Shown here piece after piece: positions 6,208 to 46,899 of a stretch of 64,000 bases of DNA (its first letter is position 1; the number at the start of each line of letters is the position of its first letter). The stretch comes from Parapristionchus giblindavisi (lineage: Eukaryota > Nematoda > Chromadorea > Rhabditida > Diplogasteridae): NCBI GenBank assembly GCA_943737045.1, contig CALSFV010000373.1, positions 188,501-252,500 of the forward strand. Direction: 5' to 3'. The position numbers and the translations under genes are program-made. The notes beneath the pieces are model-generated. The model was not told where the DNA came from. It saw only the letters and a program-made list of their open reading frames with translations, and did not search any database.

Positions 6208-8895
6208 ATGAGCGTATTCGGTAAGGAACAGTGGGGAGCCGGGGCCGAGAAAAGCTGGCGCTGAGCTCTTATGGCTAACAGGATTAGCAGGGATTTTATA
6301 AGAGGAACTGCTATAAATAAATCACTATTCTATTTTCCCATTCTTACTTTGTATAGACAGTCTATGCGAATTTTCACTCTACGTGCTTTCGTGTAACTTT
6401 GCAACGAGTTTTGCTAAAAAATTATCGATTTATGAAATATGATAAAATAATAAATTAATTATTTTTTTCCAGCCGACTCCTCCCCTCTCGACATCGCTCA
6501 TCTGCTCATCGCGCTCACGCTCCCGACCGAACCCAGGAGGTGCGCGGACTTACTGTGTTTATCAGCCGAGCAAATACATATATTATTTCTTAGGAGTTTT
6601 GATGATATCTTTAATTTCACTGGTTTATTCGAATAAAGTAAAATCCGTAATCACAGGAACTAGTGCTTTTTTATGAAATCAGAGCCCGCGCCCATTTGGA
6701 TAATTAAATCTTATCTTTGATGGTGATTGGTATCCCTAACGACCCTAATGAACCGGCGATTTAAATTACCCTAACGACCCTAATTAAGGACGCCGACGCA
6801 AGTGATGGATCGTCTTCAAACGCGACTCTATGAGATTCATGAAGAGGTACGGAACAATAATAAATAATTTCAGTTATTAATTTAACCAAATCATTGCCTT
6901 TACTCATACATCTTTGATCTACTTGTCTTCTGTGCCCATTGTTTCTTTAAAGCACACACGAACTATTCTGAAATTCTCCGCTCTGGCCACGCTCTCTCGC
7001 TCTTTTTTCTCTACGAGAGAACGTTGCAAGAGTCTTAAGTTTCAAATTAGCTCGGGGTCTGTCTTTAAAAAAAAGTTGTTGACAAAGTTCGCGCTTCCTG
7101 GTCATGGTTTCATTGCTATTACAAATTCCTTTATCTCTCTATCAATCTATCATAGTCTCTCGTCTATCACATCTTATAATCTTGATTTCAACGCTATCAG
7201 CGACTATGAACAGTACGTGATAGGCGAGGAAATTAGTGCAACCGATGAACCAAACAGCCTTTACTCTCTCATATCCTGTTTGTCATCTACAGCTATCATC
7301 CTTTTTATCGCTGTCTATGCGATCTGTGCTTTTTCGCGCCTTCTCTCCCCTCCCGTCGCACGCTCTCTCAACCTTCTACCTCTCAGTCTCTATTTCTCCC
7401 TCTTTCTCTCACTCCCCTCCATTCCCCCCCTCTCTCTCTTCTACTATCTTCATCTCTCCCTTTACCCATATCAACCACATCATCTCTTCTCATTTAATGT
7501 GTAAAAGATTATTGTGCACAGTGTATGAAAGTGAGAGTGGCTTTGTCAACGGAACGCTAACGAGGCTCTGTTTTCACTTTTTCCCCTCGATGTGACACAA
7601 AACACTACGACTATTTTGTCTGAACACGTCACGCAGTTTTGCATGATCAAATATCAATTATCGAAATATGGATTTGACAAGCAATGACGAAAAAAGCAAT
7701 AATGGAAATTTGGGAATGAAGATGTTTTTACATAGATGTAGATGATCAGGGAGCTAACGAATCTATAAAGCATTGAAAAATTATTTGAGCAAGTACGCCT
7801 ACGCCGGAAGAGATAAATCTTTTGTTGAACAAACAACTGCAGACCAGATAGATAATTTCTTGTTGGAGCTTCCAAATGTGGAAAAAATCAACAGTTACAA
7901 CAATGTTTTTAGTCATGAAATACGCAGTATGCCTCAGGCTCCTCGTACAACCGAGAACCGGATAACTTTCAGTTTCACTGAGTAAAAAATCACAAGATCT
8001 TTGTCTTATAACGGCATCACATTTGCTCATTCTCTTTCTCTACGTTTTATACTGTTACTATATGTGCATCAACAATCCACCAAAATTATTTATTTTTTAA
8101 CCGTTTTTTGAATACCAGCATAAAAAATATTACAATAGATAACCGTCGCGCACAAAAACAACGCAACAGTATAAAACGTTAACACTGTTATTATATGTTC
8201 ATCAATCTACCAATTAAAAAAAAATTATTTTGTACTGTATTAGATAATCGTCACGCGTTCATCGGAATCCGCTGAGGCTTGCGTCTACCCGCGATTCGAG
8301 ACACCCAGAGTCACATTGCATGTGATCGACGAGGGGAGGAGGGGCGATCGATGTGTGGATCATGAGGATACTGAGGTAGGAGGAATAACTACCCTGTAGT
8401 TAAACACCCCGAGGTAATTTGAGAGTCTCCGCTCTGGCAATGCTCCCTCGCTTTCATTGACTGCGAGAGGGCTTTGTCAGAACAGACAGTAAAGTTAGCT
8501 CTGGGTGCTCCTTTACCTTCTCGAACAAGATCATTATATGGCCCTTTACCAATAAACATGTCGTCACAAGAGAGCCAAAATATTTTTGGCCAAAAATTCT
8601 CTTCCAAGTTTTATGGATAATGCCTCTGACGTAGAATAGGGTATAAGGTATAGTTCATAATTCGCTTGAATTCGCCAATGTCTAATTCACTCTGTATAAT
8701 TCTTGTATTCTACAACGTCATTCGTGTGCTCATTCCAGGACCTATCTACACTCCACGAAGATGAAGAGGAAGAATATGCTACTACCGTACCGCTGGCTAC
8801 CGTAACCCCTACAGTACCAGATGCTCTGCTCGACGCCGTATTCTCGGTACCGGTTTCTACCTGTGGAGCGCAGTGTACTTGCAGAGCCTGTTTGG
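6208..8895 (+). CDS. Giant gene, N-terminal exons 1-4
   Basis: Exons 6208-6220, 6473-6539, 6789-6846 and 8740-8895. The protein begins MSVF, followed by a helical, leucine-rich stretch (DSSPLDIAHLLIALTLPTEP), then a short amphipathic piece (MDRLQTRLYEIHEE), then an acidic run and the first DALLDAVF motif. Exon 4 ends with a Cys cluster, CTCRAC, that recurs as CTCQAC in the exon 18913-18986. ATG 6208 was chosen because its 13-base exon has a GTAAGG donor and its phase fits exon 2. The exon 3 acceptor (taattaag) is poor. If exons 1-3 are wrong, translation could begin at the in-frame ATG at 6805. No function can be assigned. Confidence 0.5.
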
Positions 8896-11800
8896 TGAGT
8901 AGATTGAAAGAAATGAAAAAAAGAGTTTTCTTTGGTTTTGAACACTCATTTTCCCGCTCTTTTTTTGCTATTTTCATGATTTTTGAATGCCACTAATCCC
9001 TCTATGATGAATTGCTGACTTCCGTCAGTCGACGATCTGACGCTCTCTCAACTTAAATATTATTCTGCTTATTTTTGCTAGTTTACACCTGAACTCATTG
9101 CGTGTTTCTTCTTCTTTCTCATACCTTTTTTTTTCTGAAACCACATGGACTTATTATTTCTAAATCGGCCGCAAGAGCGCTCTCACTATCTTCCCTACGC
9201 TGTGTTTGCTTAAAGTGACACTCAAATCTCCGCTCTGTCCACATTCTCTCGCCGCTTTCTTTGTTTACGAGAGGGCGTTGCCAGAGCGGAGATTAAAATT
9301 AGGTGTGCCTTTAAAACGCGCTCTCTGTAAGGGCGGAGGGGGAAGGGCACAAAGTTTCAAAATGATCCTAGACCGTTCATATTTGGTGTTTAGAGTCCCT
9401 AGGGGTGGGATACACTTCAGCCAAAAAATTGACCCGAATTATCGATTTTTGATCTACCAAAAGCGAAAAAATCAAATTGATTTTTTCCTATCGTGTCATA
9501 TATCATTCGAAAGAGCGTTGAAAGTTATGTAAAACTGACAGGTTTCAAAAGATTTCGTTCATTAGTTTTTGAGAAAAATCCGATTTTTCGAAAAAATGCA
9601 AGATTTTCTTCCTTTCGTTAAATAGCAGACCACTTTCCAGAAATCTCTTGTTCCTGCCCCTGCTAAAATATTGTGTAAAAATAGCAGGGCTATCCGAATA
9701 ACACACTCATTTTAAAAATCTGCGTTCCGGAATATGACATATTGGCAAAAAACTAACGCTTTTTAGCATTACAATTCTCGACGCAGGTTCGATTCCGGCT
9801 GCGGGTCAAAATTTTTGCAACTTTTTTTTAGTTCCGTTTTGGCTCCTAATCATCTTTTTTCGATGTTCTAGACTGTTTTAATTGGTTTTCACAATACGCC
9901 ACATGATTTCTAGTTATTTCAGTTGTTGTTTTTCTGTGACGAGAACTTATTTTATAATGCAGATCACTCAAATCGATGAAAGTATTGATCGTATAAAATA
10001 CACTTGTTCATTTGGTACGAGAGTAGCCAGCCAGAGCTACAATGAATTTATATGTTTAGAGAGAAAGTCCAGATACTACGCAGATCAGAGAAAGTGTGTA
10101 GAAGAGAAGGGAGATAAACGGGTTGATCGATAGAATACAGCAGCAAGGCAATTACACAAGTACATTTTAGACCGATCGATAAGATCGTTTTGTAACATCG
10201 TAAAAACAAGAATGGACTTTAGATCCGAATAGGAATACGAATATTTTCGTGAACAGACAGTGAGGACAGAAAGATAGCAAAAGTTGTTCTGCACACCATA
10301 CATAAATTATTTTATACTAATTCAGCTTATTGATCGCAAGAATCATGAATGAATTATCCTTGATCGTGCATGCAAAGGCGCGAAATTTTGAAAATTGGAA
10401 AATTTTGCAATAGGTTACGAACCCGCGACGTTACGTTAACTAGACAGCGCTTTTACCACTACGCCACGCGATTGATGAATCTTCGTGATAAATTCTTGTA
10501 TATCACATGTCCCTTGCATATCAGATATGTTATATTTTTGCATATACATTCGATAGCCTCCATCTTTAACACAAAAAAAGAAAACAAAGTAGAATTAGAG
10601 CGAAACGTTCTACAATCGATGTGGATAGCGATGAAGTAAATTTCGATATAGAATTGAGGAATTTGCTGAACGAATTGGATAATAGCGAAGTTTGATTCAA
10701 TTGACGATGATGTGTTGATATTTTATGAAGATCTAATGGTCACTTCCATCAGAAGTAAATTCCGATATAGAATTGAGGAATTTGCTGAACGAATTGGATA
10801 GTAGCGAAGTTTGATTCAATTGACGATGATGTGATGATATTTTATGAAGATCTAATGGTCACTTCCATCAGAAACAACATGAACGAATTTTTAAGGACGA
10901 AATAATTGAATTGGAGAATTAACCAATGTTAATTCAGTAGAGAAATATGTATTCAAATGATGACGATGTATGTGCTTGATTTCACAAATTTATCATTTGA
11001 TAAACATGTTTAAAAATAGTAACTTCCACTTTCAGAAATCGTCACAGAAAAACAACAACTGAAATATCTAGAAATCATGTGGCGTATTGTGAAAACCAAT
11101 TAAAACAGTCTAGAAACGAGAAAAAAGATGATTAGGAGCCAAAACGGAACTTTAAAAAAGTTGCAAAAATGTTGACCCGCAGCCGGAATCGAACCAGCGT
11201 CGAGAATTGTAACGCTAAAAGCGTTAGTTTTTTGCCAATATGTCATATTCCGGAACGCAGATTTTTAAAATGAGTGTGTTATTCGGATAGCCCTGCTATT
11301 TTTACACAATATTTTAGCAGGGGCAGGAACAAGAGATTTCTGGAAAGTGGTCTGCTATTTAACGAAAGGAAGAAAATCTTGCATTTTTTCGAAAAATCGG
11401 ATTTTTCTCAAAAACTAATGAACGAAATCTTTTGAAACTTGTCAGTTTTACATAACTTTCAACGCTCTTTCGAATGATATATGACACGATAGGAAAAAAT
11501 CAATTTGATTTTTTCGCTTTTGGTAGATCAAAAATCGATAATTCGGGTCAATTTTTTGGCTGAAGTGTATCCCACCCCTAGGCACTCTAGTCACCAAATA
11601 TGAATGGTCTAGGATGATTTTGAAACTTTGTGCCCTCCCCATGTCGCTACCCCTCCGCTGTTAGGGAGAGTGCGTTTTAAGAGCTGTTCCAAAGTTACGA
11701 AAAGAAAAGAAAAGCAACATGTAGAACGAAGAGAGTTTTCTCTAATTTTATTTTTGTGACTTTTGACCAACTCATTTTTCTCGCTCACATTTTCTCATTT

Positions 11801-14800
11801 TTTCTTTTTCAACTTCTATCCACATTCCTTTTTCTTTGTTTTTTTCTCTCTCTTAATCTTATTTTATTTTCTCTGACTTGCTTTCCTTCTCTCTATACCC
11901 TCCCTGTTCTACCCTGCGCATCGAACGAAAACCAAAGTTGACAGAGTGCGCGATCAAGCCGAAGAATGATATAGACAGTGAATAGAGTGGGAGAAATGGA
12001 ATGTGAGAGAGAAGGAAGAGGTAGAGGTAGAGGCAGAGGTAGAGGTAGAGGTAGAGGTAGAGGTAGAGGTTAAATATTAAAGATCCACAAATCACTAAAC
12101 TCTACGGATAATTTTGTTTATATATCATGTGATATGCAAGCACTGTTTAAATTAGAGTATATGAAGGGAAGAGTAATAGAGAGAGAGAGAGAGAGTATTG
12201 TAGAAAAAAAAGCCGATAGAGATACAGAGAAGGATATAGTTAGAGGTATAAAGAGAAAGAGAATATGAATAGAGAGAAAAATGAACTAAGATAGAGAAGG
12301 TGAAGACAAATAATGAGTGTATTTTTCAGGGAATGAGAAGCAGAGAAAGTAAGTTAGACAAAGAGTCGGACAGTTAATGAGAGAGAGAGGTAGAGAACTG
12401 AAAGAAGAGATAGAGAGAGTGTGAGAGAGAGAGAGACATAAAGAGAAAGTGAGGGAGATGGAGAGGGAGAGGGAGAGCAATGAAAGTTGTACCGATAACT
12501 GAACACACCGCACTTCTTTCTCTAATGATCTCTCTTCATTTCAATTTCACTAGGGGAGTGCTACCTTTCTCGCTTTATATCCCTTTGTTTCTTAATTTTT
12601 TACTACCAAACTAGAAATTTCATGAATTCGGTTTCGATTTTGAGTGAGTAAAGTTACAAATATTATTGACATACCCGAGCTAGTGTATACTCTCTAGTCT
12701 GGCAACACTGGTTAGTAGAAAAAGAAAACGAGAGAGTGTTGTCAGAGCGGTGAGTTTCAAATTAACTCGAGGTGGGCCATTCAATTATTCATTGTTGCCA
12801 TCTTCTGTTGATCTCTCGATATGTTGATTCATTTGATTGATTATCTGATCTGTTGTGACTAATTTGATTATCTCCCATTGGGCTACACTTTCTAATCGTT
12901 TGTCGAATTAGCTCGGCTTAGACTTTAAAAGGGCACACGATCTTTCAATGACCCGTTAAATTCTTACGCTATTCTTTTCTCTGTTCCCCATGATCCGAAT
13001 TGATATCCATTGTAAACCGTTTGCGGACACATGCGACGTCATGATCATAGGTGGAGGCATTTGCCAGAAATCCTCCCCTTACACTTGTGACATCACGTTT
13101 GCTATTTATTGATACGGCCAAAGGTGATGGCCGCTTCAAGCATATTAAAACAGTAATGTACTTTTGCCACACAATGTAGCCCTTATCCTACCACAAACCT
13201 TTTTTTGGTTTTTCAACCTAATAAAGTCTGGGATCACAGAACACCACTGCTTGGTCGCTTTTTGGCAACCATTTTCTCGATGCTTCTGATCTTGATAAAG
13301 ATCATTGTATTGTATTGTATGTACTTCGCTCTTTCCAGAGAAAAAATTCCTTATTTCCCTTTTCAGATTTCTTCGGGTATTCTACCTGCGATGGAGGTCG
13401 ACCGCACGGATGGAGAACATGATCAAGGAGTGAAGAGAGACCGAGCTGGATCGAAGAGACCAACCATCGCTGATCTGGATGTCAGAGAGGTGTGAAGATT
13501 CTCATAAGATTTTTCAGCGAGATATTTTCAAACTTTTGTTTTTCAATCCGTATTTTTGCGGATCCTGTCATGGAAAGAACCCGTCATTCAAATATATATT
13601 GCAAAAATTATGTCAATATTGAAAAAGTCAAGTCGCCTTTGCAGATTGACAATGACAACCTCTTGAGCCCCACAGACGGTATCACATCCCCTCCCACCAC
13701 TCCACGTACTCCGAATGCCAACAGATCCAGAAGACCCAGCGAGAAATTGGTAATTACAGTCTTTTTTTTCAAATTTCATTTTTTTAGTTTTTGTGCGACT
13801 CATCAGTAGCGACGCTTGGGACCATCCGAACCATCAAAAACAGCGAATGGCATAAATCACACTATATTATAATCAATTTACAGATAGAGCGGTAAATAAA
13901 ATAAGTAAATGGACAATAGTGGTTGAACAAAGTAGTAGAGAGTACATGTCACTTCAAATACAATGATGGCTTGTTTGAGAAGTTCAATTGTTTAATCAAA
14001 TTAAATTATGACGTCACGATTAGTTGTATCGATCGATTGGTTCATACAGTGTACACAAACTCACTTCCTGTGTGTACTTCCGGCAATCAATCAAATTCTT
14101 TTCACCTCTCACTTTCCCTTCATAGGAACAAGAACTGACAATGAGATCAGCTGTAATGTTTCCCCACCAACGCCATTCCTTGATTTCACGCCTAATTAAT
14201 CGATAAATTGATTTTTTTCAAAAAATCGATAATTTTTTTCCTCTAGACCATAACGTCCTGTTCGCAAGTGATTTACCACTTCTGTGCGCTCTGTGGATTA
14301 TAAAAAATGGAATTGTCAGCAATATTTTGGCCTTTTTTCAGGATTACGGTATCAATTGGATCGAGGCCTTCAAGATGGCGCCTCCCAAGACGAAGAAGAG
14401 CACACTATCCGATGAGGTATGATCTTTGATCTTTGATTGCTATTTATTACGCCAAATTTAAACAAAACAGTGAGGTTTGTTTGTTAAACCTAAAAATCTC
14501 CTATCAGCTGACTTTCCAATCCTTTGATCTCTTATCTAAACAGGTTAGGTATTCGGAAAATAATCGAGATATGTTGATGAAAGTAGTCGAAAAATATCAT
14601 ATTTTTAAGCTCTAAATTGTACGAAATTCGCGAATAATGATTTAACTATAATCTAAGTGTTTGAGCAATAATTTAAAAAATGTCGATACTTCGCTCTCGT
14701 CACGCTCTCGTAGACAATGAAGGTGAGAGAGTGTTGTCAGAGTGGAGAGTTTCAAATTATCTCTGTGTCTTTAACGTTTTTATGATTTTTCAAACACTTA

Positions 14801-17800
14801 ACTGATTATTGCACGAAATGAAGTGTTCGAAATTGTCTCTGCTGATCGGTTGATAGAATGTGAGACGAGGAAGGAATGTGCAGGGGAGAGTCTGAGATAA
14901 AAAGTTCTTAAGCGAATACAAAGTGAATAAGCGTAGTGATAAATGATTGAACGGAGATAATGATAACAATGATGGAGATAATGGAAAAGCAATCAATCAA
15001 TCTTTATCAGGTCCATCACATTGATGTGCTAGGATATGGATGTTGACCATTGGGCATGTGACATATTCCACCATATATGAAAAATAGAGTGATATAAATT
15101 AGAGACTAATTGTAAAATTGAAAAAAAATGAATGGAAAATAGAGTTTAAGATCGAAGACCAGGACCCTAGGTTTAAGACCAATCGAGATCAATTTAATTA
15201 AAACACTTGGCAATGTCACAAACGATTACCACTTGCTAATTGCTCGATTAAACCGTGACCACTGATAAAATGCAGCCGTGTTGAGAAACTCCGAGTATTT
15301 CCTGTTAATTTATATAGTATCGTTGTTATCCGTATAGCATTGAACTAACTTACTTTTCTGTTACAATGTTAAGCCAATGACGTTAGGAAGAATTTTGTCG
15401 AGTTGATAAATTATAATAGTTTAAAATCGATATTTCAGGTTGAGGACAAGTTGTCATTCATGGACCAGGAAGAGGAGGACAGACTGAAGATGAGCCAAGT
15501 ACTACAGAAGATCGACGATGGATGCAGAGGGAACAGATTGATACAAAGGTTATCTATAATTACTTTCACTAAAATTGCAGTCTCTCATAAAAGCAATTTT
15601 TTATACTTCAAACTTAATTTATCAGGACTAGCTAAGCATTGTATCCTCGGAATCAGGAGTGTGAAAAAGGGGTCAAATTCAAGTGTATTAATCCGAATTA
15701 TTTTTTTCAAATAGACTTTTCCTGCATTATGTTCCTATGAAAATGCATTAAAATTATGGTATAAAATGAGACATTCCTTCAAATTAAATTTTAAAAAAAA
15801 GATATTTAACGCCTGAATACTACTTCAGATCCAACGTTCTCATCGATTCGTCAATCTCGTTGCGCGATATTTTCGGCGCCAGCGCCAAGTCTGACGATAT
15901 CGTATTCAACACCTCTATTAGGTATGTTGTTTGATCACTAATCTTCGATCTTTGATCTTTGATCTTTGATCTTTGACAGTCTGGACGACGTCTTTGCTGG
16001 TATCAAGACCTCTTCTGTTCCTCCGACGAAGAAAGCCAAGACTGACTCCTATTACTATCATGATGATGATGATGAGGAAGATGATGAGGTTTTTTTTTAT
16101 TTATTTTTTATTTTCTGTTCTTTTTTTTAGAAAATATTCAACTATCTCAATTTCATTCCTGATGTTATTCCTATTCACTGCTAAATTCAGGAAGTCCTGC
16201 CGCCAGAGGTCGCGGCGCTCTATTCATCCAAGCCCATGACAATCTCTCCTCTACCACAGACATCCTCAGTGAACATCGACGACGTCTTCGCCGCTCTAGA
16301 TAGGGTCAACGCCCAGAAACATTTGGATATGGACGACTACTACAGTTCAGCGCCGCCTATTTCATCATCCGAGGTCGAGCACTGACTGCACCCACTTGGT
16401 TGCCCACGTGGTTACCCACTTGGTTGCCCACTTGGTTGCCCACTTGGTTGCCCACTTGGTTACCCACTTGGTTGCCCACTTGGTTACCCACTTGGTTACC
16501 CACTTGGTTACCCACTTGGCTGCCCACATTCCTGAGTTGCCCACTTTTGGTTTATTCTCCCGCACAGGTGTTTTTCGTTTGCTAACACGTGACATCCTTA
16601 ATAATAATCGCACGGTGTGTCTATCGCTATGTATGATTTGATCAATCGATAAATGATTAGAGTGTACGGTATCGATTTAGGTTTTCTCTGACTCGGCACT
16701 GTCCAGTAGTGTACGCACACGACAAGATAAAAGGGATGACACAACTTCAGCCGAAGGTGCTCAGCACATACAAATTTTTATCTTTGATCTTTTCTAAAGA
16801 TTTTATCTGGAACAAATGTCAGTGGTCTAATATCATATTTTTCACCCCGAGATAGGTTTACCTTCCATTCTGGCAATACTCTCTCGTAGACCATGAAAGA
16901 GAAAGAGCATTGCCATAGCGGAGAGTTCGCTAGCGCTCTGTTTTTACCGCCATGGAAAGATCATAGCAAGATGAACATGCCACTGACATTTGTTTAGCCT
17001 ATTTTTACGAATTTATGTGAATAACACGCAAAATAGCAGGCTCGACACCTCGGCGAAAAGCGTCATCAAGCAGTGGATGCTCCGAGGAAAAGGTAGCGAG
17101 TGTGGTATACTATGTACATGAAAAACATATTTTGGGCATTTGTAATTTGGATTAAACATACGTAGGTTGTGTTGCCTAATAACGGCCGACATTGTGATGA
17201 TGGAATTGGTGGTACGAAGATTCTTAGTTAGTAGCATGCATGTTTATACGGTGATGCTAGGAAAGAAAATTACAATGTTATCATCTGATTTTCAGGAACC
17301 TTGCAGTAGCGCAGCGACTGACTGGCTCGAGAGAATCGTCGGCACAGACGAAGAGGGAAGACCCAATCAACTGTTATCCGAAAGACTAAACGAGTATGTT
17401 TCACAAATGTTTCTTAGCCAACATTATCCGTTTTATATTGATGTTGTAGGTGGTTCGTAGGTTTATAGAAAAAAACAATTAATCGTTATCGAAAAAATAA
17501 AATGATATCTTTCGGGTTAAGCCAAATGCGCTTAAATTTAAAACATCAATATACGCCATACAGCATTTATTTTTTACAATTGCTAAATAACGGTATATGT
17601 AGCTATAAACATTCTCTTATTACAAATTTCTTTTCTCTCTCTTTAATGTGGCATTGTAATATGGAATATTTTTTTTAAATTAATAAATTTATTTATTTAC
17701 GGTATATTTTTCCTACCAGAATGCCTTCGTCTATCGAGTATGATGACGAGTCGACACAGTCTTCATCACCCGATCAACTTCCACCACTCCCAATGTTTCC

Positions 17801-29800: not shown

Positions 29801-32800
29801 GCAATTATCGTTGTTGATATTCCTTTTCCGTATGCACATTAAATTATTGACATATATTAGTGGACTCGTATATGAATCATAAGAGAGTCATCCACAGTGT
29901 TTCTCATCCACGGGGAGATCGGTCATTGAAAACATGGTAAAATGTCAAAAAATACGCATATTAACCATGTTGTACTTTAACCGTATCCTGCGTACTCTCT
30001 CTCTTTATCGCTTCACTTTTTCTCTGTCACATCTCCTCGCTCTCAACGCGCTGTGTAACCCTGTTTATTGCGAGTTTCACTCACTAATAAAGTAGTGTGA
30101 ATAGAACAATAGTGCCTACAACGGAATCCATGCATGATCACGGAAAATGAAAACATGATTATAAATCTTGACTTCAAATATCAGAGGAATTGTAAAATTG
30201 TGATGTGAATGTGCGGATTTCTGCATATGTCAGTTGTGATATGAGGAGTAGATACACTGTATCCTACATATATTATAAATACAGTACATCTGCGCTGAAA
30301 AGAAGAAGGACGAGGAACGTGTTGATATTTCAGGTTGGAATACAAGAGTGCACTACATGTACACGTCACGAAACATACTATATGTTTTCATGAAATAACA
30401 GATTTAGAGATACATAAAAATTGCGAACATAGCATTCAAAGGATCATTTTTAGTGGGTGTGCTCAAAAATAACCACGATAATCCTGAAATTCACGTCTAA
30501 TCTGATGTAGAAAAGTCAGAAAAAGAAAGGAAACTAAACGAAGCGATAGAGTATGCACAATGATGAGAGTTTTCTCTGCTTTTCTTTTCTGTTCGTGATT
30601 TTGAACTGAATATTGCAGGTACCTTGACAACGACTGTACGTGTTGCTGGATATTCATCCCCAAAGAGGGAATTCCGAGAGGCACGAGAAAGGAGAAAGAA
30701 GGTTATTTTATTTTATTTCGATTTTATTTTATTCATTAATTAATTTAAATTTATGTTTAAAATTAATTGTTCGAAAAAGATGAAAGTGAATGATATTAAA
30801 ATCAAAAGATTTCAAATTAATATAAACGATTTCCAGATCATTCGCAAGTCCCGTTGTAGCGTGTCATCTAGTGACTCAGGAGGAAAGTCGACGACCAAAC
30901 CAGATGAGGAAGAAATGCTCGAGGTTGGGGAGAATATCGTATTACATCTGAAAAACAAATAACATTGATCCAGTGATCATTTGTCAAAATCGAAAAATAT
31001 TAGCATCAATGTGCATTGCGCAGATCGGTATTGAAATACATACTAACAAATTGTGAGAAATTATTAACCCGTTGTTAAGATATTCACATCTATTAACAAC
31101 TGGCCATAGAATTCTAATGCTGTTAATATAAAAATATAAATTTTAATAAAAATAAAAATATATTAAATTTCCAGGTCGAAGTAACTCCCTCATTCATCAT
31201 TCTCCGTGGTTCCTACAATCTCGTTGTTGCCAAGGTATTGTTATTAGTATTTTGTGTTAATATCCACAAACACATTTGAAACACTCAACAGATGTCTTTT
31301 AAACGATATATTTCATCTGTGTAAAGAAGAGAGAATTGTGAGATAAAGAGGTAGTTAGACTTTAGTTTATATCAGTAGATAAACAATAAACAAAGATAAT
31401 GTGCGAGCCCACATTCCTACTGACCTTTGAGCCGAAATCATGTGTTACAAGCACACCTCGAGCTAATTTTACTCTCCGCTTTGGCAGTACTCTCATCAAC
31501 AAAGTAAGCGAGAGAGCATTGTGAGAGTGGAGAGTTACTAATTATCTCGGTTGCGCCTTTAATGTGCGAAGAACCGATTTTGCCTTTGTAGAGGAAACTT
31601 TTTTCACAAAAAAATACGAATTCATCCTAGTCCTCTCCTTCATGTGAGGGCGTAGCGATTGATTGAGCGCATCACATTGTTTTGTTGTTTAGGATGAGCC
31701 ATTGGGTCGACTTCTTCTCTCACTCTCCGATGGTCAACCAATAGTCCCGGCTGCTCTCGATTTCTCCGTTCTACCCAAGCTGAAAAGACTTCTCAGGGAG
31801 AGTATGACTAAGCGGGCAAGAAGGTCTGTATTTTCCTATGTTATTTTTAAATCTTAAAAGCTTGTTTTCTTACGTAAATAGTTAGAATATACTTTGTCTT
31901 CGAAATCACAACGCATTTTATAGCCATAATTATGGCTATCAAAGGTGCTGATAAGACTGTTCTGATAAGATTTACTGATGTTTCTGACCAGTATATCAGG
32001 AGCTTTTTTTGCTTCTTTGTAGTGACATATGGTCGAACGAGGCTATCGCTGCCTTTGATCATTGATCATCTTATCTAGTCATTTGATCTCTAATACAAAC
32101 TTGTCTCTAGATGTTGTTTATTCTTCATACGAAGCTCAGTAGCTTTATAGATCTGTAGCTCCATAGCTCTGTAGCATTATTGTTCATTATATCTGGCGAG
32201 CAACGAATTTACATTTTTCTATACCTGTTATATCCCTTTAAAGACATACCCTCTGGACAATTCTCAACTCTAGTCATATATCCTCCACTTCTCTTCGTCT
32301 GTCAAAGACGTAGCATGGCCAGAAGGAATGATACTAAAATATCTATAGCGTCTACTTATCATACATTGTGTAGAGTGATCGACATTCATCTTTTGTTATT
32401 ACTTGTACACTGTGTGTTAGTATACTCATTGACAACTTGGCTATTTGTCTAAAAATTACAGTATGGTGCACCATGGTGTACTTTAACCGTCTGCGCTCCT
32501 TCACTTTTGCGTACACACTCTCGGTTTCGCTGTACTTTTTTTCTGCACTGGCAACGCTGTCTGACTATTATCTTTCAAACCAATGTAATATACCAATTAT
32601 ATTTATTTCAGTGTGAGCATGTTGTCTTGTCGTGGCGCCTCCCTGCTTGATCTACCCGATCCAATGAGCGAGAATCGACGAGCGGCCAGCTCCAATCTCT
32701 ACCATCCAATCAATAATCCCCAGGTAATAAGCTTGATAGAAACCATTCCAGAACTCATCAATATCATTGTTTTACATTACAATTGAAGATCTTATAAAAC

Positions 32801-35800
32801 ATAGGAGTGAATGGGACAATTTTAGGGATAGTTTTTTTTGTCTCTACAAGAAAATGGAAACACATTTATCCTCTATTTCAGGGTAACGTGAACTTATGCA
32901 CGGCTGAGAATCGTGTGTGCGAGCAAGAAGTAGGGAAGCGTCTTCAGGTAGATTTTCTCGATATTCCCCTCCCAAGTATCCCAATTGTGAGCTGTTGCGA
33001 AAGGAAAAAGGAATAAGAGATTACTCTTCGCTTTTCATTCTATGATCTATACTTATACGATTTACACTCTTTTCAAATCCTTTGTTTACACACTATCTCG
33101 CCTCTTTTTTCGTTTGTTTATCTTCTCTTCGAGAATTTGGAACGTGATATATCAACTATGACTAATCGATAAGCATACCGTGTTTACTAAAATGCGGGGT
33201 TGTCAATAATCTAGCTCTCAATTCCATAAACCATGGAAATTCCGTGCGAGAGCATATAATTAAACTCCTTTCAATGACAAAGTTTACGCTCCTTTTAAGG
33301 AGATCCGCATCCGTCCCGAATCAGTTCAATGGCTTATTCGATACTCAGCCAAGGGAGGACTTATGGAGTAAGTGTTCTTACTAACAATACGCTTTATCTC
33401 CTCTTTTGCTCAAGATTTCGTATGATGTCAACTATTGTTTATCTCTTTGCATCATATCATATGCCACGAAATCAATCAATAATACTTCTTTCAGAACAAA
33501 GACCGCCCTATGTGACTTCTATTCTCGTCTGTTGAATGTTCCCTTGGATACTAAAGAGACCGTACTGCTGCCTGCGGTGACATCGGCCTATGACCTCATA
33601 GTGCATCTCACCTGCGACCCTCATGGTATTTCTTTTGGCACTGCTGTATATCTAGGCCCAGATTGGGGACTAGTTTAGGGGTTCGGTAGTCTAAACTAGA
33701 TGTTGGATTTAATTGCTATTGAATTCTAAATATATTTAACGGGCGTTATCATAGATTATCATGGTCGTAGGATGTTATGGCCAACAGCATGATTCGTTAA
33801 TATAGATCTGTTGAATGGAAATAAAATTTGTTGACTGTGGAACCAAAATATCATAGAATATTCGTCAGCATTGCATGTTTCAGATATCGTACTGACCACT
33901 GCGCCCTACTACTGTCGTATCACAAACGATTGTGCCGAGAGGAATCAGTGCCGCATTGAACACGTTCCTTTGGTTGGTTATTTGAACCGTTTATATCTTT
34001 TTTATTAAGTAAAATTCTATCCTAGTGTTTTCACTATATCCACTACGAGTATCAACTTTGTTTATGTCTATATTCTTCTTGTTAAAAAATATAATTGAAA
34101 TATTCTCAGAATCCGGACCACCCCGAACTGATCGTCTCCGAGTACGAGAAAGCGTATGCCACGTGGGCATCTAAGGTTTGTAATTTTTTTTAAACTTAAA
34201 AATTCCAAACTTCTCATTACACTACATCTTAATGAGAACAGATTTTTTCGTATAAAGACATTATCGACAGTTAGTTTGAATATTTCATACATACATCTTA
34301 TCCAATTATTTATAGCCAACCTTAGAAAATATAACGAAATTCAAAACGGCATTGCTAATGAAAGACCATGTGCTTGATATGTCATGGCGACTTTCTTTCA
34401 TTTCTTTTACACATTTATCATATTACGAGAAGTCTCTCTTGTACATGATTGGCCACTCAAGACTTCTTGGTCGTTTCAAAAAAAGTTGGCCCAATGCTTC
34501 ACATGAAGAAGTTCTTCTGTCATGAAGATTTTATACCTATTCTCTACAAACAACTCAGTATTTATAATTTTCATTATCAGGGAGAACGCGTGCGAGTACT
34601 CGTCATAGTGAACCCTCACAATCCACTAGGAAATGTATTCAAGAAAAGAGAGGTCCTTGCTCTGTGCGAATGGGCCATAAGGTATCGATTTCTTTCGGAT
34701 ATAATTTTAATTATAATACTTTTAGTTAAATTAATTAGTTATCATAATTTTTATCATATAATTATAACAATTATTTTAATTCTCTGTAGGGGATCAAGTT
34801 AGCTTTTATTGTTGGAAATATTGCAAGAACTGTGCATAATCAAGCGGAGAGCGTTACCTCTCGGAACTATTTCTTCAGTGCATGAAACTTATAATAAAAG
34901 CCGGCATTGTGATTCACAATAAGGGGACACCGGGAGCTTATTTAAAACTCTCCGCACTGGCAACACTCTCTCACTCTCCGTGCCTCTGTAAGAGCGTGGC
35001 CATAGAAGAGAGTCAAATTAGCTCGGGGTGTGTCAATAACAGATAGAGTCTCGCATAGAATATTACAGTAATATCTAATTCTGTGTGATAAAAATATAAA
35101 TATAAATAATAAAGTACAGTAAAGGATAGTATAGTACAGTAGTAGGACTGTACAGTAGTATAAATTCAAGGCCCTTTTACAATTTATACAATTTTAAAAT
35201 TGTAAAAATCGTTAAAAAAATGATCGTATTCTTCAGCAATGATATCTTCATCATAATGGACGAGATTCTTCTCGGCACAATCTACACGGGTCTTTCCTCG
35301 TTCCAATCGATGTTGTCGTACAAGAATGAGCTGAGCAAGCCAGAGATGGTCGCGTGGCTTTCAAGTTTGTCCAAGGTGAATACAATATTTTAAACTACTA
35401 TATCGGATGTTTTAATGGCTTTACCGCATCTGGTTCCCATGAGATGGAGATTGCATGTTTTACAATTAGTGGTGTTGTGATCCCATGGTGAATACTGTCC
35501 ATGTGAAATACAAAAGTGCTAAATTGTAAATCAAGATGAAGTATCTATCCGCTATATTGAATCATTTGTCTTATTTTCCTTTATTTATCATAGGTAATTT
35601 TAACAATTGGTCGTAAATAAGCTTATTTGATACATATATTGGTTCAATAAAGAGTTCATATGCTACCCTATTTTTCCAGGATCTCGGTATCCCCGGAATC
35701 AAGACGTGTCTTGCCATCATTCCTTCTGAGGCCATGAGAAGCGCCCTAACTCGATTAGAAGCCCTCTCTCCTGTTCCACCTCCAAGTCAACTCATAGTCA

Positions 35801-38800
35801 ATCAGCTACTAGCCGATCGAAGTAAGTTTCAAGCTATCCTGAAGATTCAACAAATGTCATAAGCCTTGCTGATAATTTCAAGGAAGTGCAGTATTATATA
35901 CAGTACTGGCCAAAATAGTGTAACATTTGGTTTTTTCGCCATAACTTTTTTCAAACTCAACCGATCGAGTCCAGATTTTCAGGGATAATTTTTAGAGTGT
36001 TTTCACGTGTTTTACACAACAAATTAGCCCGGGTGATCCCTTACGGTGAAATTTATTGAGAATTTATCAAAAGTCACAAAAGTGAGATTTTCGTTTTCTT
36101 CGATTTCGTCTTAATTTTTCACTAATTTTGATAGCAATGTGTGTTTTATCGATTTAAAAGCATGAGACGGATTCTTGGGAGCAAGAATCTACCGAGATCT
36201 GATCGAGAATCCATTCGTCGTGGACGTCAGATGGGACTGTCACTGGCACTCTGTCACAGCAGTTTCGAGTGACTGTTTCGACTATCCTGAAGGTCATCAA
36301 AACTTCAATCCGTGCTCAAACAATGAAGAAGGTTAATGTACGACCTCGCAAGTCGACCACGATATCGGATCGTCTTATTACCTGCATCTCGAAGGAGAAA
36401 TTGAGGCGCACTACAATGGACATCAAGCTACCCCTAGCGGAGTTTCGCTAAATTGAGGTGCCTAAAGCTTCTAAACTTGCCTGAAACTATGTTTGAAGGA
36501 ATGAAATGTGTCTCTAGCATATCTACTTCTTCATAATTCTCTTCACCTAAACCAGGGGTCCAACCCCATCTTCAGAGAAACAACATCATAACATCAACGA
36601 TTCTCCTCCATGCTTCACGGTGGTCAGTTGGTACTTCACATCCAATCTAGTGCCAACCGGACGACGAACATGATATATTCCCACCTTAGCAATCATCAGA
36701 AACTTCCTTTCGTCTGAGAATACGACCTAATTCTACTGTTAGTGGGTCCAATACCAGTGCTCTTTTGCCCATGTGATCCATGCTTTGCGATTCTTTTCGG
36801 ACATCAGCTGTTACTTGATATGTCCACGTTCGAAGAGACCCGAAGCACGAAGACGATGCTGTACATTGTTCACGGATACCTCAAACATCTTTTCAGACAT
36901 GTTTAGAAACCTTATCCACCTCAAATTAGCGAATCTCCGCTAGTTCTCGCTTGATGCCCATTGTAGTGAGCCTCAATTTCTTCTTCGAGATGCAGGTAAT
37001 AAGACGATCCGATATCGTGGTCGACTTGCGAGGTCGTACATTAACCTTCTTCATTGTTTGAGCACGGATTGAAGTTTTGATGACCTTCAGGATAGTCGAA
37101 ACAGTCACTCGAAACTGCTGTGACAGAGTGCCAGTGACAGTCCCATCTGACGTCCACGACGAATGGATTCTCGCTCAGATCTCGGTAGATTCTTGCTCCC
37201 AAGAATCCGTCTCATGCTTTTAAATCGATAAAACACAGATTGCTAGCAAAATTAGTGAAAAAATTAAGACGAAATCGAAGAAAACGAAAATCTCACTTTT
37301 GTGACTTTTGATAAATTCTCAATAAATTTCACCGTAAGGGATCACCCGGGCTAATTTGTTGTGTAAAACACGTGAAAACACTCTAAAAATTATCCCTGAA
37401 AATCTGGACTCGATCGGTTGAGTTTGAAAAAAGTTATGGCGAAAAAACCAAATGTTACACTATTTTGGCCAGTACTGTATATATCATTGTTTGCAGAAGA
37501 TTACTTTATAAGAGAAAAGTATATAGATAGTTGAAATCGTAATGTCAAATACGAAAAACTATTGACAATAATATTGTAACTCAACTAAACCTTACGATGT
37601 TTTGCTCTTTCCTACGTAAGATTCAAGTAATTGCAGAATTTACTATAATTATAATAGTACGTCACAGCTTATAATTTAATTTTAGACTGGCTATCATCAA
37701 CTCTAGCCGTTGGTCGCCAGAGACTCGAAGCGCACGCGAGATTCACTCACGAAGCTCTGGCTGATATCGGTATTCATTCTCCGCTTCCACTGAGTGGAAT
37801 ATGCCTTATGGCTGATTTCGGAAAGGTAAGTAGTGTATTTTCTAGATCATTGTAGTTTACCTTCAGGATATCTTGTTGTTTATCATCTGGATACTTTTTC
37901 CTCGCGTTAATATTCCAATTCTTTAAAAAAAATTTAAATATTGTAATTGTCAAAATTACCATATCGTGAATTTCAGTACCTCACCTCGCGATCTCATGAA
38001 GAAGAGGTGAAGTTGCATCGTTTGCTCATCGATCATGGAGTAGTACTTACGATGGGAGAGTCTGCCAAGGCCACAGAACCGGGATGGTTCCGGGTCTCGT
38101 TTGGTGGACCGAAGAATGAATTGGAAATTGGTGATTAATAGATATAATTTCTTCACCTGTACAGATAGAACATGATATTTGGAGAACCTTAAAGAGAAAT
38201 GAGTAAATTAGTTGGATAAAATGTATGTACATTAATTTTTTTATTAGGAATGCAACGTATTTATTCGTGTCTCGCACCCGAGGCTACATTGAAACACGCA
38301 ATCAACTATACAAAGGAATCCAAAGAAGACAGGAAAGGTTGGAATTGTTTTTAAATTTTTTTTTATTTTTAAAGCAACTGCGTTGACTCTGACAATGAAT
38401 ACTTTGATCTATGTCTATTGTAAGAAACGATAAATATTTAGTTATTATTTATTATGAGTGATCAAACATTTCCCAGGATTTAGATCAAAACTTTAGAGAC
38501 ACAATCCGAGCTAATTTGTAACTCTCCGCTCTGCCAGTGCTCTCTCGCGTTCTTTGTGTTTCTAGAGAGTTGCCAGAGCGGAAAGTAAAGTAAACTCTCG
38601 TTGTGACTTTAAATACTCACAAGGGAATGGTCTCAATTTGGCCTGACCTTATGAAATGTCAATAGTGTGACTAAAAATAGTTATATATGCCGATCGCAAA
38701 TCCGTTTTAGACAGTGCCTAATCGACCTGAGCTTCGAGAAAATCGATCTTGAAATTTGCCTTTCTTGGCTGGCTTTTCGATTCGAAAGTTCACATGGTCT

Positions 38801-39387
38801 CCTACACTAAACTATCCCGATGGGTTCATTAGCTCATCTATCAGCCATCAAGTCATCGACTTTCGTAGTGTAGTGGATAGGTGTCCACGTTCACTTTTGA
38901 TTGCCACGGGTTCGATCCCCTTTGAAGCAATTTTCTTTTGCTGATTTTTATCTTGCCGAAAGATTGAAATATTTTGCTATGATTATGAAAACCAGAAAAG
39001 AAAATAGGAAAGTAGGTATGTCTCGATAGTTGATAGATGAGTTAACGAACCCATCGGGATATTTTAGTGTAGGATACAGCATGAACTTTCGAATCAGCCC
39101 AGAAAGCCAAACTTCAATATCGATTTTCTTGAAGCTCAGGTCGATTAGGCACAGTCTAAAAACGGTTTTGCGATCAGCATATTTAACTAATTTTAGTCGC
39201 ACCGTTGGCATCTCATTAGGCCACGCCGAATTGAGACCATTCCCTTGTCAGCTGCGAAGTACAAAACAATATTAAAATAATGATATTATAATATAAATAA
39301 TGATAAATAGATAAAATAAATATTGCAGAATGGCTCATCGCCGATGTTCGTCCGACTAGTCCAGGCACAACCGTAGAATCACCCTAG
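6208..39387 (+). CDS. Giant multi-exon gene: repetitive disordered protein with C-terminal ACCS-like PLP aminotransferase domain
   Basis: Fifty-three exons can be joined with matching phase at every junction and no internal stop, from ATG at 6208 to TAG at 39385-39387, giving about 2,822 residues. The first ~2,400 residues are polar, Ser/Pro/Asp/Glu-rich and built largely from recurring short motifs. Residues ~2409-2822 are a fold-type I PLP aminotransferase domain most like ACC-synthase-like proteins (ACCS). I do not recognise the N-terminal part. The ORF stays open through the 30837-30923 and 31175-31234 exons, so a single fused gene is the simplest reading; two genes sharing exons, or an internal promoter for the aminotransferase, remain possible. 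The start is the least certain part (exons 1-3 are small). One donor (GAG|gtcgag after 16373) and several AAG acceptors are weak. The component exon groups are listed separately. Confidence 0.72.
6947..7068. mobile_element. H1 hairpin MITE copy, TTAA at both ends
   Basis: TTAA at 6947-6950 and 7065-7068; stem CTCCGCTCTGGCCACGCTCTC. Confidence 0.85.
8400..8515. mobile_element. H1 hairpin MITE copy
   Basis: TTAAACACCCCGAGG left end; right end TTAC instead of TTAA. Confidence 0.8.
9209..9314. mobile_element. H1 hairpin MITE copy abutting a larger TTAA palindrome
   Basis: Its right TTAA (9311-9314) is also the left boundary of the 9311-11680 element. Confidence 0.8.
9968..10190. mobile_element. 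Third MITE family copy (GTATAAAATACACTTG ends)
   Basis: Related to copies at 25898-26110 and 56719-56930: ATAAAATACACTTGTT at one end, AAGTACATTTTA at the other, shared interior (GGTACGAGAGTAGCCA). Inserted in the core of the 9311-11680 element. Confidence 0.7.
10413..10466 (-). other. tRNA-like sequence (box A and box B)
   Basis: On the minus strand TGGCGTAGTGGTA (box A-like) is followed by CGCGGGTTCGTAACC (box B-like). A complete cloverleaf is not evident, so this is tRNA-derived rather than a functional tRNA. Confidence 0.55.
10632..10875. repeat. Two-copy tandem duplication, ~122-bp unit
   Basis: The second copy begins at 10754 and differs from the first at a few positions. Confidence 0.9.
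12017..12072. repeat. (GAGGTA)n minisatellite
   Basis: About nine hexamer units in an intron of the giant gene. Confidence 0.9.
12120..12480. repeat. GA-rich low-complexity intron sequence
   Basis: Purine-rich GAGA tracts; the minus-strand open frames here are low-complexity artefacts. Confidence 0.7.
12671..12782. mobile_element. H1 hairpin MITE copy
   Basis: ACCCGAGCTAG start, CTCGAGGTGGGCC end. Confidence 0.8.
12908..12932. mobile_element. H1 end fragment
   Basis: TTAGCTCGGCTTAGACTTTAA resembles the right end only. Confidence 0.5.
13367..20115 (+). CDS. Giant gene, exons 5-19 (acidic low-complexity region)
   Basis: Exons 13367-13489, 13645-13749, 14342-14416, 15439-15548, 15829-15921, 15980-16088, 16191-16373, 17296-17393, 17720-17825, 18072-18191, 18762-18833, 18913-18986, 19379-19469, 19654-19713 and 19999-20115. 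All phases agree. The protein is charged and Ser/Pro-rich, with single copies of the motif later expanded (SLDDVFAGI, NIDDVFAAL, DIDLDVVFSYP), a basic patch with Thr-Pro sites (TPRTPNANRSRRPSEKL), an Asp/Glu run and a second CTCQAC motif. If the weak donor at 16373 is not used, the reading frame stops at TGA 16383-16385 and gives a short product. The acceptors before 19654 and 19999 are AAG rather than CAG. Confidence 0.7.
14682..14774. mobile_element. H1 hairpin MITE copy
   Basis: Left end truncated; right end CTTTAA. Confidence 0.75.
15943..15977. repeat. Tandem GATCTTT heptamers next to a splice acceptor
   Basis: Four to five GATCTTT units run directly into the acceptor (ctttgacag) of the exon at 15980. 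Confidence 0.85.
16391..16522. repeat. 12-bp tandem repeat, CCCACTTGGTTG/A
   Basis: About 11 units beginning 17 bases after the exon 11 donor. The period is a multiple of three, so all frames stay open; the ORFs across it are artefacts unless the intron is retained. Confidence 0.95.
16811..16995. mobile_element. Palindromic element with nested H1 copy
   Basis: AACAAATGTCAGTGG at 16811 is matched by CCACTGACATTTGTT at 16980. An H1 hairpin (16842-16938) lies between them. Confidence 0.65.
18241..18306. mobile_element. H1 left-half fragment
   Basis: CCTCCGCTCTGTTAGCGCTC followed by TCTCGTAGAC; right half missing. Confidence 0.6.
19527..19626. mobile_element. H1 hairpin MITE copy
   Basis: Lies 27 bases upstream of the exon at 19654. 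Confidence 0.75.
20239..23154 (+). CDS. Giant gene, 2,916-base exon 20 encoding the repeat array
   Basis: One uninterrupted exon of 972 codons (residues ~611-1582), far longer than any neighbour. It carries degenerate repeats of a composite unit in a fixed order: an acidic motif such as EIDLDRVF or DINLDDVF; then RVDLSKFxxRTLER (variants RLDLSKFEKRTLER, RVNLDKFQPRTLER, RVDLDKYQPRVVER); then a Ser-Ser-Val-Pro-Val-Leu motif; then IDMDxVFNP. Two adjacent units (about 20899-21120 and 21217-21440) are nearly identical in protein, which suggests recent tandem duplication. Composition predicts intrinsic disorder; no catalytic or membrane segment is visible. It starts after attccag and ends at AGAG|gtaaag. 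The conserved motifs look like repeated docking peptides, but the partner is unknown. Confidence 0.85.
23168..23265. mobile_element. H1 hairpin MITE copy
   Basis: Diverged; fills most of the 141-base intron 23155-23295. Confidence 0.65.
23296..25736 (+). CDS. Giant gene, exons 21-27 including a tandemly duplicated exon block
   Basis: Exons 23296-23682, 23765-23863, 23982-24049, 24233-24320, 24391-24489, 25262-25329 and 25524-25736. Exons 23765, 23982 and 24233 are repeated in the same order and phase as exons 24391, 25262 and 25524. Both copies encode a segment with PSRYDEDKWKPRTLEREKKK, then KSDLPES, then VDIDEVFSGK and LTT(S/T)TVEY. The duplication therefore adds one more copy of the repeat unit to the protein. 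The intron between the second-copy exons is enlarged by insertion of a TTAA element (24508-24933). The last exon ends in a charged, probably helical segment rich in Lys and Glu. Confidence 0.8.
24508..24933. mobile_element. TTAA-bounded palindromic element carrying a tRNA-like sequence
   Basis: TTAA at 24508-24511 and 24930-24933 flank ends AGGGACAGTAACCCC and its inverse (AGGGAGAGTAACCCC). The paralogous intron of the duplicated exon block (around 23880) has the same flanks with a single TTAA (cactcTTAAcac), so this is an insertion that duplicated TTAA. The core contains box A-like and box B-like sequence on the minus strand. Confidence 0.9.
24624..24676 (-). other. tRNA-like sequence (box A and box B)
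   Basis: The minus strand reads ATAGTCTAATGGTAAG, then GGTTCGAGTCC about 30 bases later, a perfect box B consensus. Acceptor-stem pairing is not clear. Confidence 0.6.
24930..24990. mobile_element. H1 remnant next to the TTAA element
   Basis: TTAACACACCGAACTAATTT...AAATTAGCTCGG, with only a short stem left. Confidence 0.65.
25743..25831. mobile_element. H1 hairpin MITE copy
   Basis: Begins just after the exon ending at 25736; right end eroded. Confidence 0.75.
25898..26110. mobile_element. Third MITE family copy (CCGTATAAAATACACTTG ends)
   Basis: Best copy of the family: CCGTATAAAATACACTTG at 25898 is matched by AAGTACATTTTATACGG at the right end. Confidence 0.8.
26288..31823 (+). CDS. Giant gene, exons 28-41 (linker between repeat region and aminotransferase)
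   Basis: Exons 26288-26468, 26936-27028, 27328-27390, 28104-28214, 28487-28559, 28695-28786, 28944-29072, 29398-29518, 29671-29790, 30619-30701, 30837-30923, 31175-31234 and 31693-31823; the next exon is 32612-32723. Phases agree throughout. The protein is mostly polar and probably disordered, with basic Ser-rich stretches and a segment (FREARERRKK) that could be helical or a nuclear localisation signal. The last two exons look more ordered (SFIILRGSYNLVVAK, then GRLLLSLSDG) and may form a small beta-rich domain before the aminotransferase. No family is recognised. Confidence 0.7.
27080..27192. mobile_element. H1 hairpin MITE copy
   Basis: TTAAAGGCACATTCCGAAC left end; right TTAA lost. Confidence 0.8.
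27839..27935. mobile_element. H1 hairpin MITE copy, shortened stem
   Basis: TTAAAGAAACGCCCGACC left end, AGCTCGGGATTGG right end. Confidence 0.7.
28226..28268. mobile_element. H1 right-half fragment
   Basis: GTGGCCAGAGCGGAGAGTTAC lies just after the exon ending at 28214. Confidence 0.5.
31449..31562. mobile_element. H1 hairpin MITE copy
   Basis: ACACCTCGAGCTAATTTT left end; CGCCTTTAA right end. Confidence 0.8.
32612..39387 (+). CDS. Giant gene, C-terminal ACC-synthase-like PLP aminotransferase domain
   Basis: Exons 32612-32723, 32882-32947, 33300-33367, 33495-33625, 33884-33972, 34110-34175, 34581-34681, 35237-35375, 35680-35821, 37686-37825, 37977-38130, 38248-38337 and 39329-39387. The domain spans residues ~2409-2822, close to full family length. 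Family motifs in order: a CTAEN start, a PYY motif (~2505), NPHNPLG (Asn ~2562), IIMDE (Asp ~2590), SLSKD with the PLP lysine (~2628), and GWFRVSF with the carboxylate-binding Arg (~2761). Two usual active-site positions differ: the Tyr expected after DEI is Leu (DEILLG), and the Arg after the lysine loop (GxR) is Lys (GIK). In this family the lysine forms the PLP Schiff base; the substrate here is unknown and activity may be altered. A foldback Tc1 element sits in the intron 35822-37685. Confidence 0.85.
34921..35034. mobile_element. H1 hairpin MITE copy
   Basis: ACACCGGGAGC start, GCTCGGGGTGTG end. Confidence 0.75.
35901..37477. mobile_element. Tc1-family foldback element with inverted 5' halves
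   Basis: A TA dinucleotide flanks CAGTACTGGCCAAAATAGTG and its exact inverse. The arms (35901 to ~36500, and ~36870 to 37477) each contain the N-terminal part of a Tc1-like transposase in opposite orientation (open frames 36269-36451 plus and 36926-37108 minus). The loop keeps minus-strand catalytic-region sequence: VVFSDERKF with the catalytic Asp, then VRRPVGTRLD, then VKHGGESLML. Both arms share the same frameshift and the loop has stops, so it is non-autonomous. It sits in the intron 35822-37685 of the aminotransferase region. Confidence 0.92.
36440..37200 (-). pseudogene. Decayed Tc1-like transposase
   Basis: The minus strand reads a DNA-binding segment (MTVSTILKVIKTSIRAQ, VRPRKSTTISDRLITC), then NRKAWITWAKEHWYW, VVFSDERKF and VKHGGESL, in the order expected for Tc1/mariner transposases. 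Frameshifts and stop codons interrupt it, and the C-terminus with the last catalytic acidic residue is missing. Confidence 0.85.
38492..38612. mobile_element. H1 hairpin MITE copy
   Basis: ACACAATCCGAGCTAATTT left end; GACTTTAA right end. Confidence 0.8.
38619..39249. mobile_element. Palindromic element with tRNA-like loop
   Basis: ACAAGGGAATGGTCTCAATT begins the left arm and its inverse ends the right arm. The arms (38619-38855 and 39013-39249) pair over ~235 bases. The loop contains a tRNA-like sequence. It lies in the last intron of the giant gene. Confidence 0.88.
38866..38919 (+). other. tRNA-like sequence (box A and box B)
   Basis: TAGTGTAGTGGATAGG, as in Glu/Asp tRNA D-arms, is followed by ACGGGTTCGATCCC. 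The middle does not give a clean anticodon arm, so it is likely tRNA-derived. Confidence 0.65.
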
Positions 39388-39391
39388 GATC

Positions 39392-39397
39392 AATAAA
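39392..39397 (+). terminator. Candidate polyadenylation signal of the giant gene
   Basis: AATAAA lies four bases after the stop codon; another AATAAA is at 39646-39651. The first is unusually close to the stop, so the second may be the one used. Confidence 0.4.
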
Positions 39398-46883: not shown

Positions 46884-46899
46884 ATGAATGAACAAATCA

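Follow-up and report, generated by a model that had tools for sequence, protein, structure and literature searches.

A predicted giant nematode protein, very probably an inherited fusion of a repetitive disordered region with an ACCS-like PLP-enzyme domain

ACCS-like enzymes usually occur as stand-alone proteins, with a size given as about 450–500 aa in the original prediction for this locus. The window, i.e. the whole 64-kb stretch of DNA that was analysed (contig C373:188501-252500), contains a coding chain that departs from this form: it encodes 2,859 aa and carries such a domain at its end, as do fused proteins of its relatives. The locus raises the question whether a single fused protein is encoded or two adjacent genes, and what an enzyme domain would do at the end of such a long chain.

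Gene model and layout of the predicted protein

The coding chain extends from 6208 to 39387 on the forward strand. It consists of 54 in-phase exons with zero internal stop codons and ends with a stop codon at 39385–39387, closely followed by an AATAAA (39392–39397). All of the introns (53/53) are of the GT-AG type, with a median length of 272 bp. The 53 exons and approximately 2,800 residues of the original prediction were essentially right, and its end position is the same. The model was obtained as a self-trained exon chain with hand-corrected last exons; its start codon is provisional and exons 1–3 (6208–6846) are the least certain piece.

The best in-phase exon chain scored 130.1 for positions 6200–20200, 170.8 for 23200–31850 and 29.5 for the enzyme part, compared to maxima of 15.5, 12.3 and 13.9 in 20 dinucleotide shuffles each. 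The real sequence also beats shuffles in stretches in which no gene is expected. Chain scores on the reverse strands of the N-terminal, 23200–31850 and enzyme stretches were 15.3, 18.8 and 17.3, and positions 40000–47000, which were assumed to be non-coding and doubled as training background of the codon model, yielded 17.4 compared to 11.5 in shuffles. Codon statistics thus speak strongly for the scaffold and modestly for the enzyme part by itself, a difference probably due to the derivation of the codon model from the big scaffold exon. The exons of the enzyme part are placed by homology to PF00155, to plant ACC synthases and, exon by exon, to a protein of Pristionchus entomophagus (P0002).

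The nearest protein relatives of the locus are from Pristionchus nematodes. The same fusion, for which a protein search of relatives had been suggested originally, was found in PENTCL1PPCAC_1942 of P. entomophagus (P0002, 1,831 aa) and PMAYCL1PPCAC_28940 of P. mayeri (P0026, 1,495 aa), both annotated as 'hypothetical protein, partial'. Both are about 60% identical to the window protein and share with it the order of repeats, FPPPP motif, module and ACCS-like domain, with an identical junction. Unlike the window protein, both models are partial and begin inside the repeat region; that of P. mayeri ends inside the enzyme domain, its row covering about half of the domain. When compared to the window by tblastn, the two proteins gave 29 matches each, which are collinear above position 25000. 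The full-length query, scored on aa 2340–2859, yielded one match (P0002, 62% identity over 100% of the region), and the N-terminal part as sole query matched P0002 and P0026, both with PF00155. These searches were length-limited and hid shorter models, so that the few matches say nothing on absence elsewhere, for example in P. pacificus.

The predicted protein comprises approximately 2,288 disordered-looking residues with repeated short motifs, a 119-residue module and an ACCS-like domain of the type I PLP enzymes. In a charge-hydropathy comparison, three stretches of aa 1–2288 plot as disordered, the one in the middle barely so (0.438 vs 0.441). The module is located barely on the folded side (0.447 vs 0.440) and the enzyme domain clearly so. 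Exons 1–20 (6208–20115, forward strand, aa 1–654) are outside the reach of the relatives' partial proteins and contain IDxDxVF-type motifs at aa 374 and 623. They also contain two CxCxxC motifs at aa 136 and 556, CTCRAC (8739–8894) and CTCQAC (18913–18986), which are about 420 residues apart, likewise beyond the relatives' proteins, and could perhaps bind metal.

The main repeat array, with motifs of the IDxDxVF, KFxxRTLER and SSxPV types, is encoded by a large exon of 972 codons (20239–23154, forward strand). This exon is single copy in the assembly (1/1 matches), and 260 of 631 aligned residues are identical in P. entomophagus. The window protein features 15 IDxDxVF-type, 7 KFxxRTLER-type and 10 SSxPV-type motifs, compared to mean counts of 0.026, 0.0 and 0.154 in shuffled N-terminal sequence, a contrast that overstates the surprise since the patterns were written post hoc with the sequence already seen. 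In the same order, 8, 4 and 5 motifs are present in the partial protein of P. entomophagus and 7, 3 and 3 in that of P. mayeri.

Like the other candidate partner motifs of the scaffold, an Ena/VASP EVH1-type motif was recognised by pattern alone. It consists of FPPPP followed by P(V/E)EE (23350–23364, forward strand), is found in all three species (FPPPPPVEELD, FPPPPPVEEIE and FPPPPPEEEID) and fits [FWYL]PxPhiP with an acidic flank. PMC8789275 gives FPPPP as a common instance of this motif and notes that its affinity can increase with acidic flanks. Further downstream, an exon set is present in two copies (23765–24320 and 24391–25736, forward strand), of which the first has no aligned counterpart in the fused proteins of P. 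entomophagus or P. mayeri. A Pfam scan of the big exon and of aa 1627–2407 at E ≤ 1 gave no match.

The module (aa 2289–2407) is encoded by four exons (30619–31823, forward strand) and adjoins the enzyme. It is the best conserved part of the fused protein: the three species share 97 of its 119 residues, compared to 126 of 224 in the stretch of the enzyme domain covered by all of them. A search of PDB sequences with the module yielded chance-level matches alone (best E 0.12). In NCBIfam, 57 families matched at E ≤ 0.001, and no match among the 25 listed came close to the cut-off of its family. Rfam and tRNA scans of the 64-kb window gave 0 matches.

Several repeats were observed in the introns and around the exons. 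An inverted repeat at 9340–11640, located within an intron, is long, with arms of 424 nt (98% complementary) and 182 nt (95%), and encloses a 119-bp tandem duplication; it looks like a foldback-type mobile element. A second one at 35895–37483, in an intron of the enzyme domain, has arms of 225 nt (100%) and 382 nt (95%) and gives the impression of a folded-back Tc1/mariner-type relic. The last intron (38616–39251) contains a diverged inverted repeat with arms of 74–93 nt (85–88% complementary), and a 12-bp tandem repeat with 11.4 copies (16391–16527) is found directly past an exon end. A neighbouring gene on the reverse strand (50514–57021, rough exon model) encodes a Rap_GAP domain (PF02145, 1e-48, exons at about 55222–57021) and, after it, gives a weak match to PDZ (exons at about 50514–50935), the arrangement known from SIPA1-like proteins.

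Enzyme domain and its stand-alone relatives

The ACCS-like PLP-enzyme domain (aa 2408–2859) is encoded by the last 13 exons (32612–39387, forward strand). It matches PF00155 with an E value of 7.8e-38 and 131 bits, compared to a curated cut-off of 19.7, which places it among the class I-II aminotransferases. The PLP domain predicted originally is thereby borne out, although it had been assigned to the last 12 exons. The best PDB sequence matches are ACC synthases (apple 1m4n and Arabidopsis ACS7 7dlw), and plant ACC synthases reach 1.3e-35. When the predicted structure of the stand-alone P. entomophagus paralogue (mean pLDDT 85.4) was compared with the PDB by fold, the 14 best matches were ACC synthases.

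Residue numbers used here are those of apple ACC synthase, in which Tyr85, Tyr233 and Arg281 are important active-site residues. In an alignment of 21 rows, Asn202, Asp230, the PLP lysine Lys273 (35373–35375) and Arg407 are kept in the window copy and in P. entomophagus. The ring-contacting Tyr233 is replaced by Leu in all six Pristionchus-type rows (DEIY to DEIL, 35268–35270 in the window) and is Tyr in all 15 others. Lys is present at the Arg281 position (35701–35703) in the two fused rows covering it and in three actinobacterial-type rows; the rows of the three stand-alone copies keep Arg281, as do the other 12. The Tyr85 found in plant ACC synthases is absent in the window copy and in all covering rows except two plant-type ones. 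At the three positions expected of an ACC synthase proper, the window protein thus has Lys, Leu and Lys, and based on these changes and the family placement the domain is named ACCS-like, not ACC synthase. The changed residues at positions 233 and 281 weaken the case for ordinary catalysis; this alteration of the active site had escaped the original prediction.

Stand-alone ACCS-like proteins were found as partial models in P. entomophagus (PENTCL1PPCAC_12375, 427 aa), P. mayeri (PMAYCL1PPCAC_15319, 432 aa) and P. fissidentatus (PFISCL1PPCAC_15299, 344 aa). They are 47–49% identical to the enzyme domain of the window and share the Leu at position 233, but have no scaffold, keep Arg281 and form a separate clade. 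The homology of two of these copies to the window starts at 32613–32616, where the first enzyme exon begins. The smaller tree comprised 18 of 23 relatives and three fused sequences (P0021-P0025 left out); it separated fused from stand-alone sequences with 96/94 and supported the stand-alone clade with 94/89. In the larger tree, from which P0015 and P0017 were additionally left out and to which 7 of 80 prokaryotic loci were added, both the separation and the stand-alone clade received 98/89. The six Pristionchus-type rows grouped together with 100/100 in both trees. A further alignment, A1, contained 13 of the 23 relatives. Separate orthologues in relatives had originally been named as an observation that would speak against the fusion. 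Stand-alone copies do exist in three Pristionchus species, but since they form a separate clade and two of the three species also have the fused gene, they are paralogues.

In the smaller tree, the fused branches of P. entomophagus and P. mayeri have lengths of 0.12 and 0.065, compared to 0.12 and 0.16 for the stand-alone branches of these species; the branch of the window enzyme domain, by contrast, is long (0.51). The fused branches not being longer than the stand-alone ones, together with the kept active-site residues, points to an enzyme domain under constraint.

The assembly (251 Mb, 703 contigs) was searched for further copies exon by exon with scoring of the best candidates, a procedure that weak exons can escape. 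All matches of the stand-alone copies P0003 (6/6) and P0005 (7/7) and of the module with the first half of the enzyme (9/9) lie inside the fused locus, and on these grounds the idea of a stand-alone paralogue or of a retrocopy in the assembly was rejected. The stand-alone enzyme of P. fissidentatus is at most 54% identical to this genome. As the matches of stand-alone enzymes are confined to the fused gene, the function of the enzyme family in this genome may depend on the giant protein.

A PF00155 search of the assembly, whose matches do not include the fused locus, gave eight loci, all away from the fused gene. Four of them (L001, L002, L003 and L006) match the plant ACC synthase P0009 and the bird sequence P0011 with 22–43% identity in short pieces. 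None of the eight (0/8) matched P0003, P0005 or P0007 at E 1e-3, and they are for this reason not counted as Pristionchus-type ACCS-like copies. The four loci are located on contig C228 at about 378–384 kb. Their PF00155 stretches span approximately 110–170 codons and occur on both strands; some are part of open frames longer than 230 aa, and one contains a stop.

Horizontal transfer of the enzyme was considered as well and is not supported. The larger tree places the nematode clade beside a single bird sequence (P0011), weakly (82/71), a placement that is not proof of vertical origin; in the smaller tree the relation of the nematode clade to other groups has no clear branching. Among the best 80 loci of a scan of bacterial and archaeal genomes, seven showed 27–30% identity with E ≤ 2e-40; six of these seven are actinobacterial. 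The remaining 73 were far weaker.

The junction and the rival explanations

Module and enzyme domain are joined across an intron of 788 bp (31824–32611, forward strand, phase 2) with the donor GTCTGT, which is weak, and the acceptor atttcag. In tblastn, residues 1335–1377 of P0002 and 1229–1271 of P0026 align to 31693–31821, and residues 1378–1415 and 1272–1309, respectively, to 32610–32723. The proteins of both relatives are thus gapless across the intron, between residues 1377 and 1378 in P. entomophagus and between 1271 and 1272 in P. mayeri. The four exons before the junction show 79–90% identity to either relative, the last of them 88–90% right to the splice. The same junction in two relatives looks like an inherited fusion and not like a misread of two genes. 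The single fused protein claimed in the original prediction is well supported by this conservation, and on the sequence evidence the fusion is very probably real and, being common to at least three nematode species, old.

If two adjacent genes were present instead, e.g. in an operon, the scaffold would end at 31855–31857, a trans-spliced ACCS-like mRNA would begin at 32612 with its ATG at 32619, and the fused models would be artefacts. Read-through beyond 31823 does add 11 more residues before a stop at 31855–31857, the ATG is found 7 bp beyond the acceptor, and the existence of stand-alone relatives and the weak donor fit such an arrangement, too. In addition, PMC12964723 judges most two-domain fusions specific to helminths, in a set of 20 species, to be likely artefacts. 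Genuine fusions exist in animals as well: in the arthropod survey of PMC13389597, chimeric mRNAs were confirmed for 36 of 41 tested transfer-derived fusions. The Met in question (32619–32621, in SVSMLSCRG) aligns with a Met close to the N terminus of the stand-alone paralogues. However, fused P. mayeri reads SVSILSSRG, and its next Met is located 54 residues past the junction, beyond the conserved AENRVC, which makes two separate genes unlikely. The identity of the last pre-junction exon right to the splice and the contiguity of both relatives' proteins also argue against them. Neither AATAAA nor ATTAAA is present in the junction intron, a weak test because the two introns preceding the junction hold such signals (31145, 31151, 31162 and 31385). 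Judged by name, the relatives' proteins are partial PPCAC models, which according to a section of PMC7992802 are transcript ORFs or P. pacificus proteins mapped by exonerate and may copy P. pacificus models. The conservation of the last pre-junction exon and the lost Met are independent of correct joining in these models, whereas the exact splice does depend on it. Based on these results, two adjacent genes are highly improbable.

With a real fusion, the main rival to a docking platform with a dimeric enzyme is a pseudoenzyme, i.e. a PLP domain that would pair two scaffold chains as a non-catalytic dimerisation or folding module. The Leu at position 233 in all Pristionchus-type rows, the Lys at 281 in the fused rows, the absence of Tyr85 and the better conservation of the module than of the enzyme part are in line with this. 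However, the Schiff-base lysine, Asp230, Asn202 and Arg407 are kept, Lys281 also occurs in the actinobacterial-type rows, and as the stand-alone copies carry Leu233, this change did not arrive with the fusion. We regard a pseudoenzyme as unlikely, though worth serious consideration. The locus might also yield alternative products, namely the long fusion and a short enzyme from an internal start at the Met of MTKRAR or of SVSML. Such a short form could supply soluble enzyme in a genome in which only the fused locus matches the stand-alone copies, and the Met of MTKRAR, located before the junction, is present in all three species (MTKRAR/MTRRAK/MTRRAR); against it, the Met of SVSML is Ile in P. 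mayeri. Alternative products of this kind appear quite improbable.

Proposed function and comparison with known systems

Our best explanation is one gene with a single-origin fusion, encoding a protein of about 2,860 residues in which a docking scaffold would carry an active dimeric PLP enzyme; for this statement as a whole, we see the chances of being right and wrong as balanced. The fusion would have arisen once, in the ancestor of these worms. In the simplest reading, an ACCS-like gene would have been duplicated, and the last exon of the scaffold gene would have come to be spliced to the first coding exon of one copy. The internal Met would then be a remnant of the former start codon, with S-V-S now encoded by the bases upstream of it. 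The disordered N-terminal region may act as a multivalent docking platform, with the Ena/VASP-type FPPPP as one dock. Type I PLP enzymes are dimeric, and dimerisation of the PLP-enzyme domain would pair two platforms. The domain could keep a local lyase- or aminotransferase-type activity where the platform binds.

Tethering, regulation or recruitment of partners by the giant N-terminal region, as proposed originally, is plausible in view of the repeated motifs and the conserved EVH1-type motif. That the scaffold carries a working enzyme is put forward tentatively, as a possibility falling slightly short of such a balance.

The architecture is new, while the enzyme family is known; no account of this scaffold-ACCS-like fusion was found among open-licence PMC papers. 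If true, it would be an animal example of a complete PLP-enzyme domain that became the C-terminal piece of a huge disordered scaffold and has been retained from an ancestor common to three or more nematode species. Conservation of the protein sequence through a junction, as used here, can help to tell real fusions from annotation artefacts, which are reportedly frequent in worms. Since the genus Pristionchus is used as a genetic model, direct tests of the function are feasible.

Compared to the ACC synthases of apple (1m4n) and Arabidopsis (7dlw), the window domain keeps the PLP lysine and the Asp, Asn and Arg residues. In contrast to it, these enzymes are stand-alone proteins, and the window domain is without Tyr85, Tyr233 and Arg281. 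The fused arrangement itself resembles that of MocR/GabR, in which an aminotransferase-fold domain is fused C-terminally to a non-enzymatic region and acts as a sensor, as described in parts of PMC6917764 and PMC5320631. This resemblance is one of architecture only: MocR/GabR proteins are bacterial and carry an N-terminal winged helix, a domain that the scan of the big exon and of aa 1627–2407 did not show. By analogy, the PLP domain might be an amino-acid or cofactor sensor in a cytoskeletal scaffold, where metabolite binding would alter dimerisation and hence the valency of Ena/VASP docking. We consider this a long shot; if correct, the protein would be an animal design counterpart of the bacterial MocR regulators.
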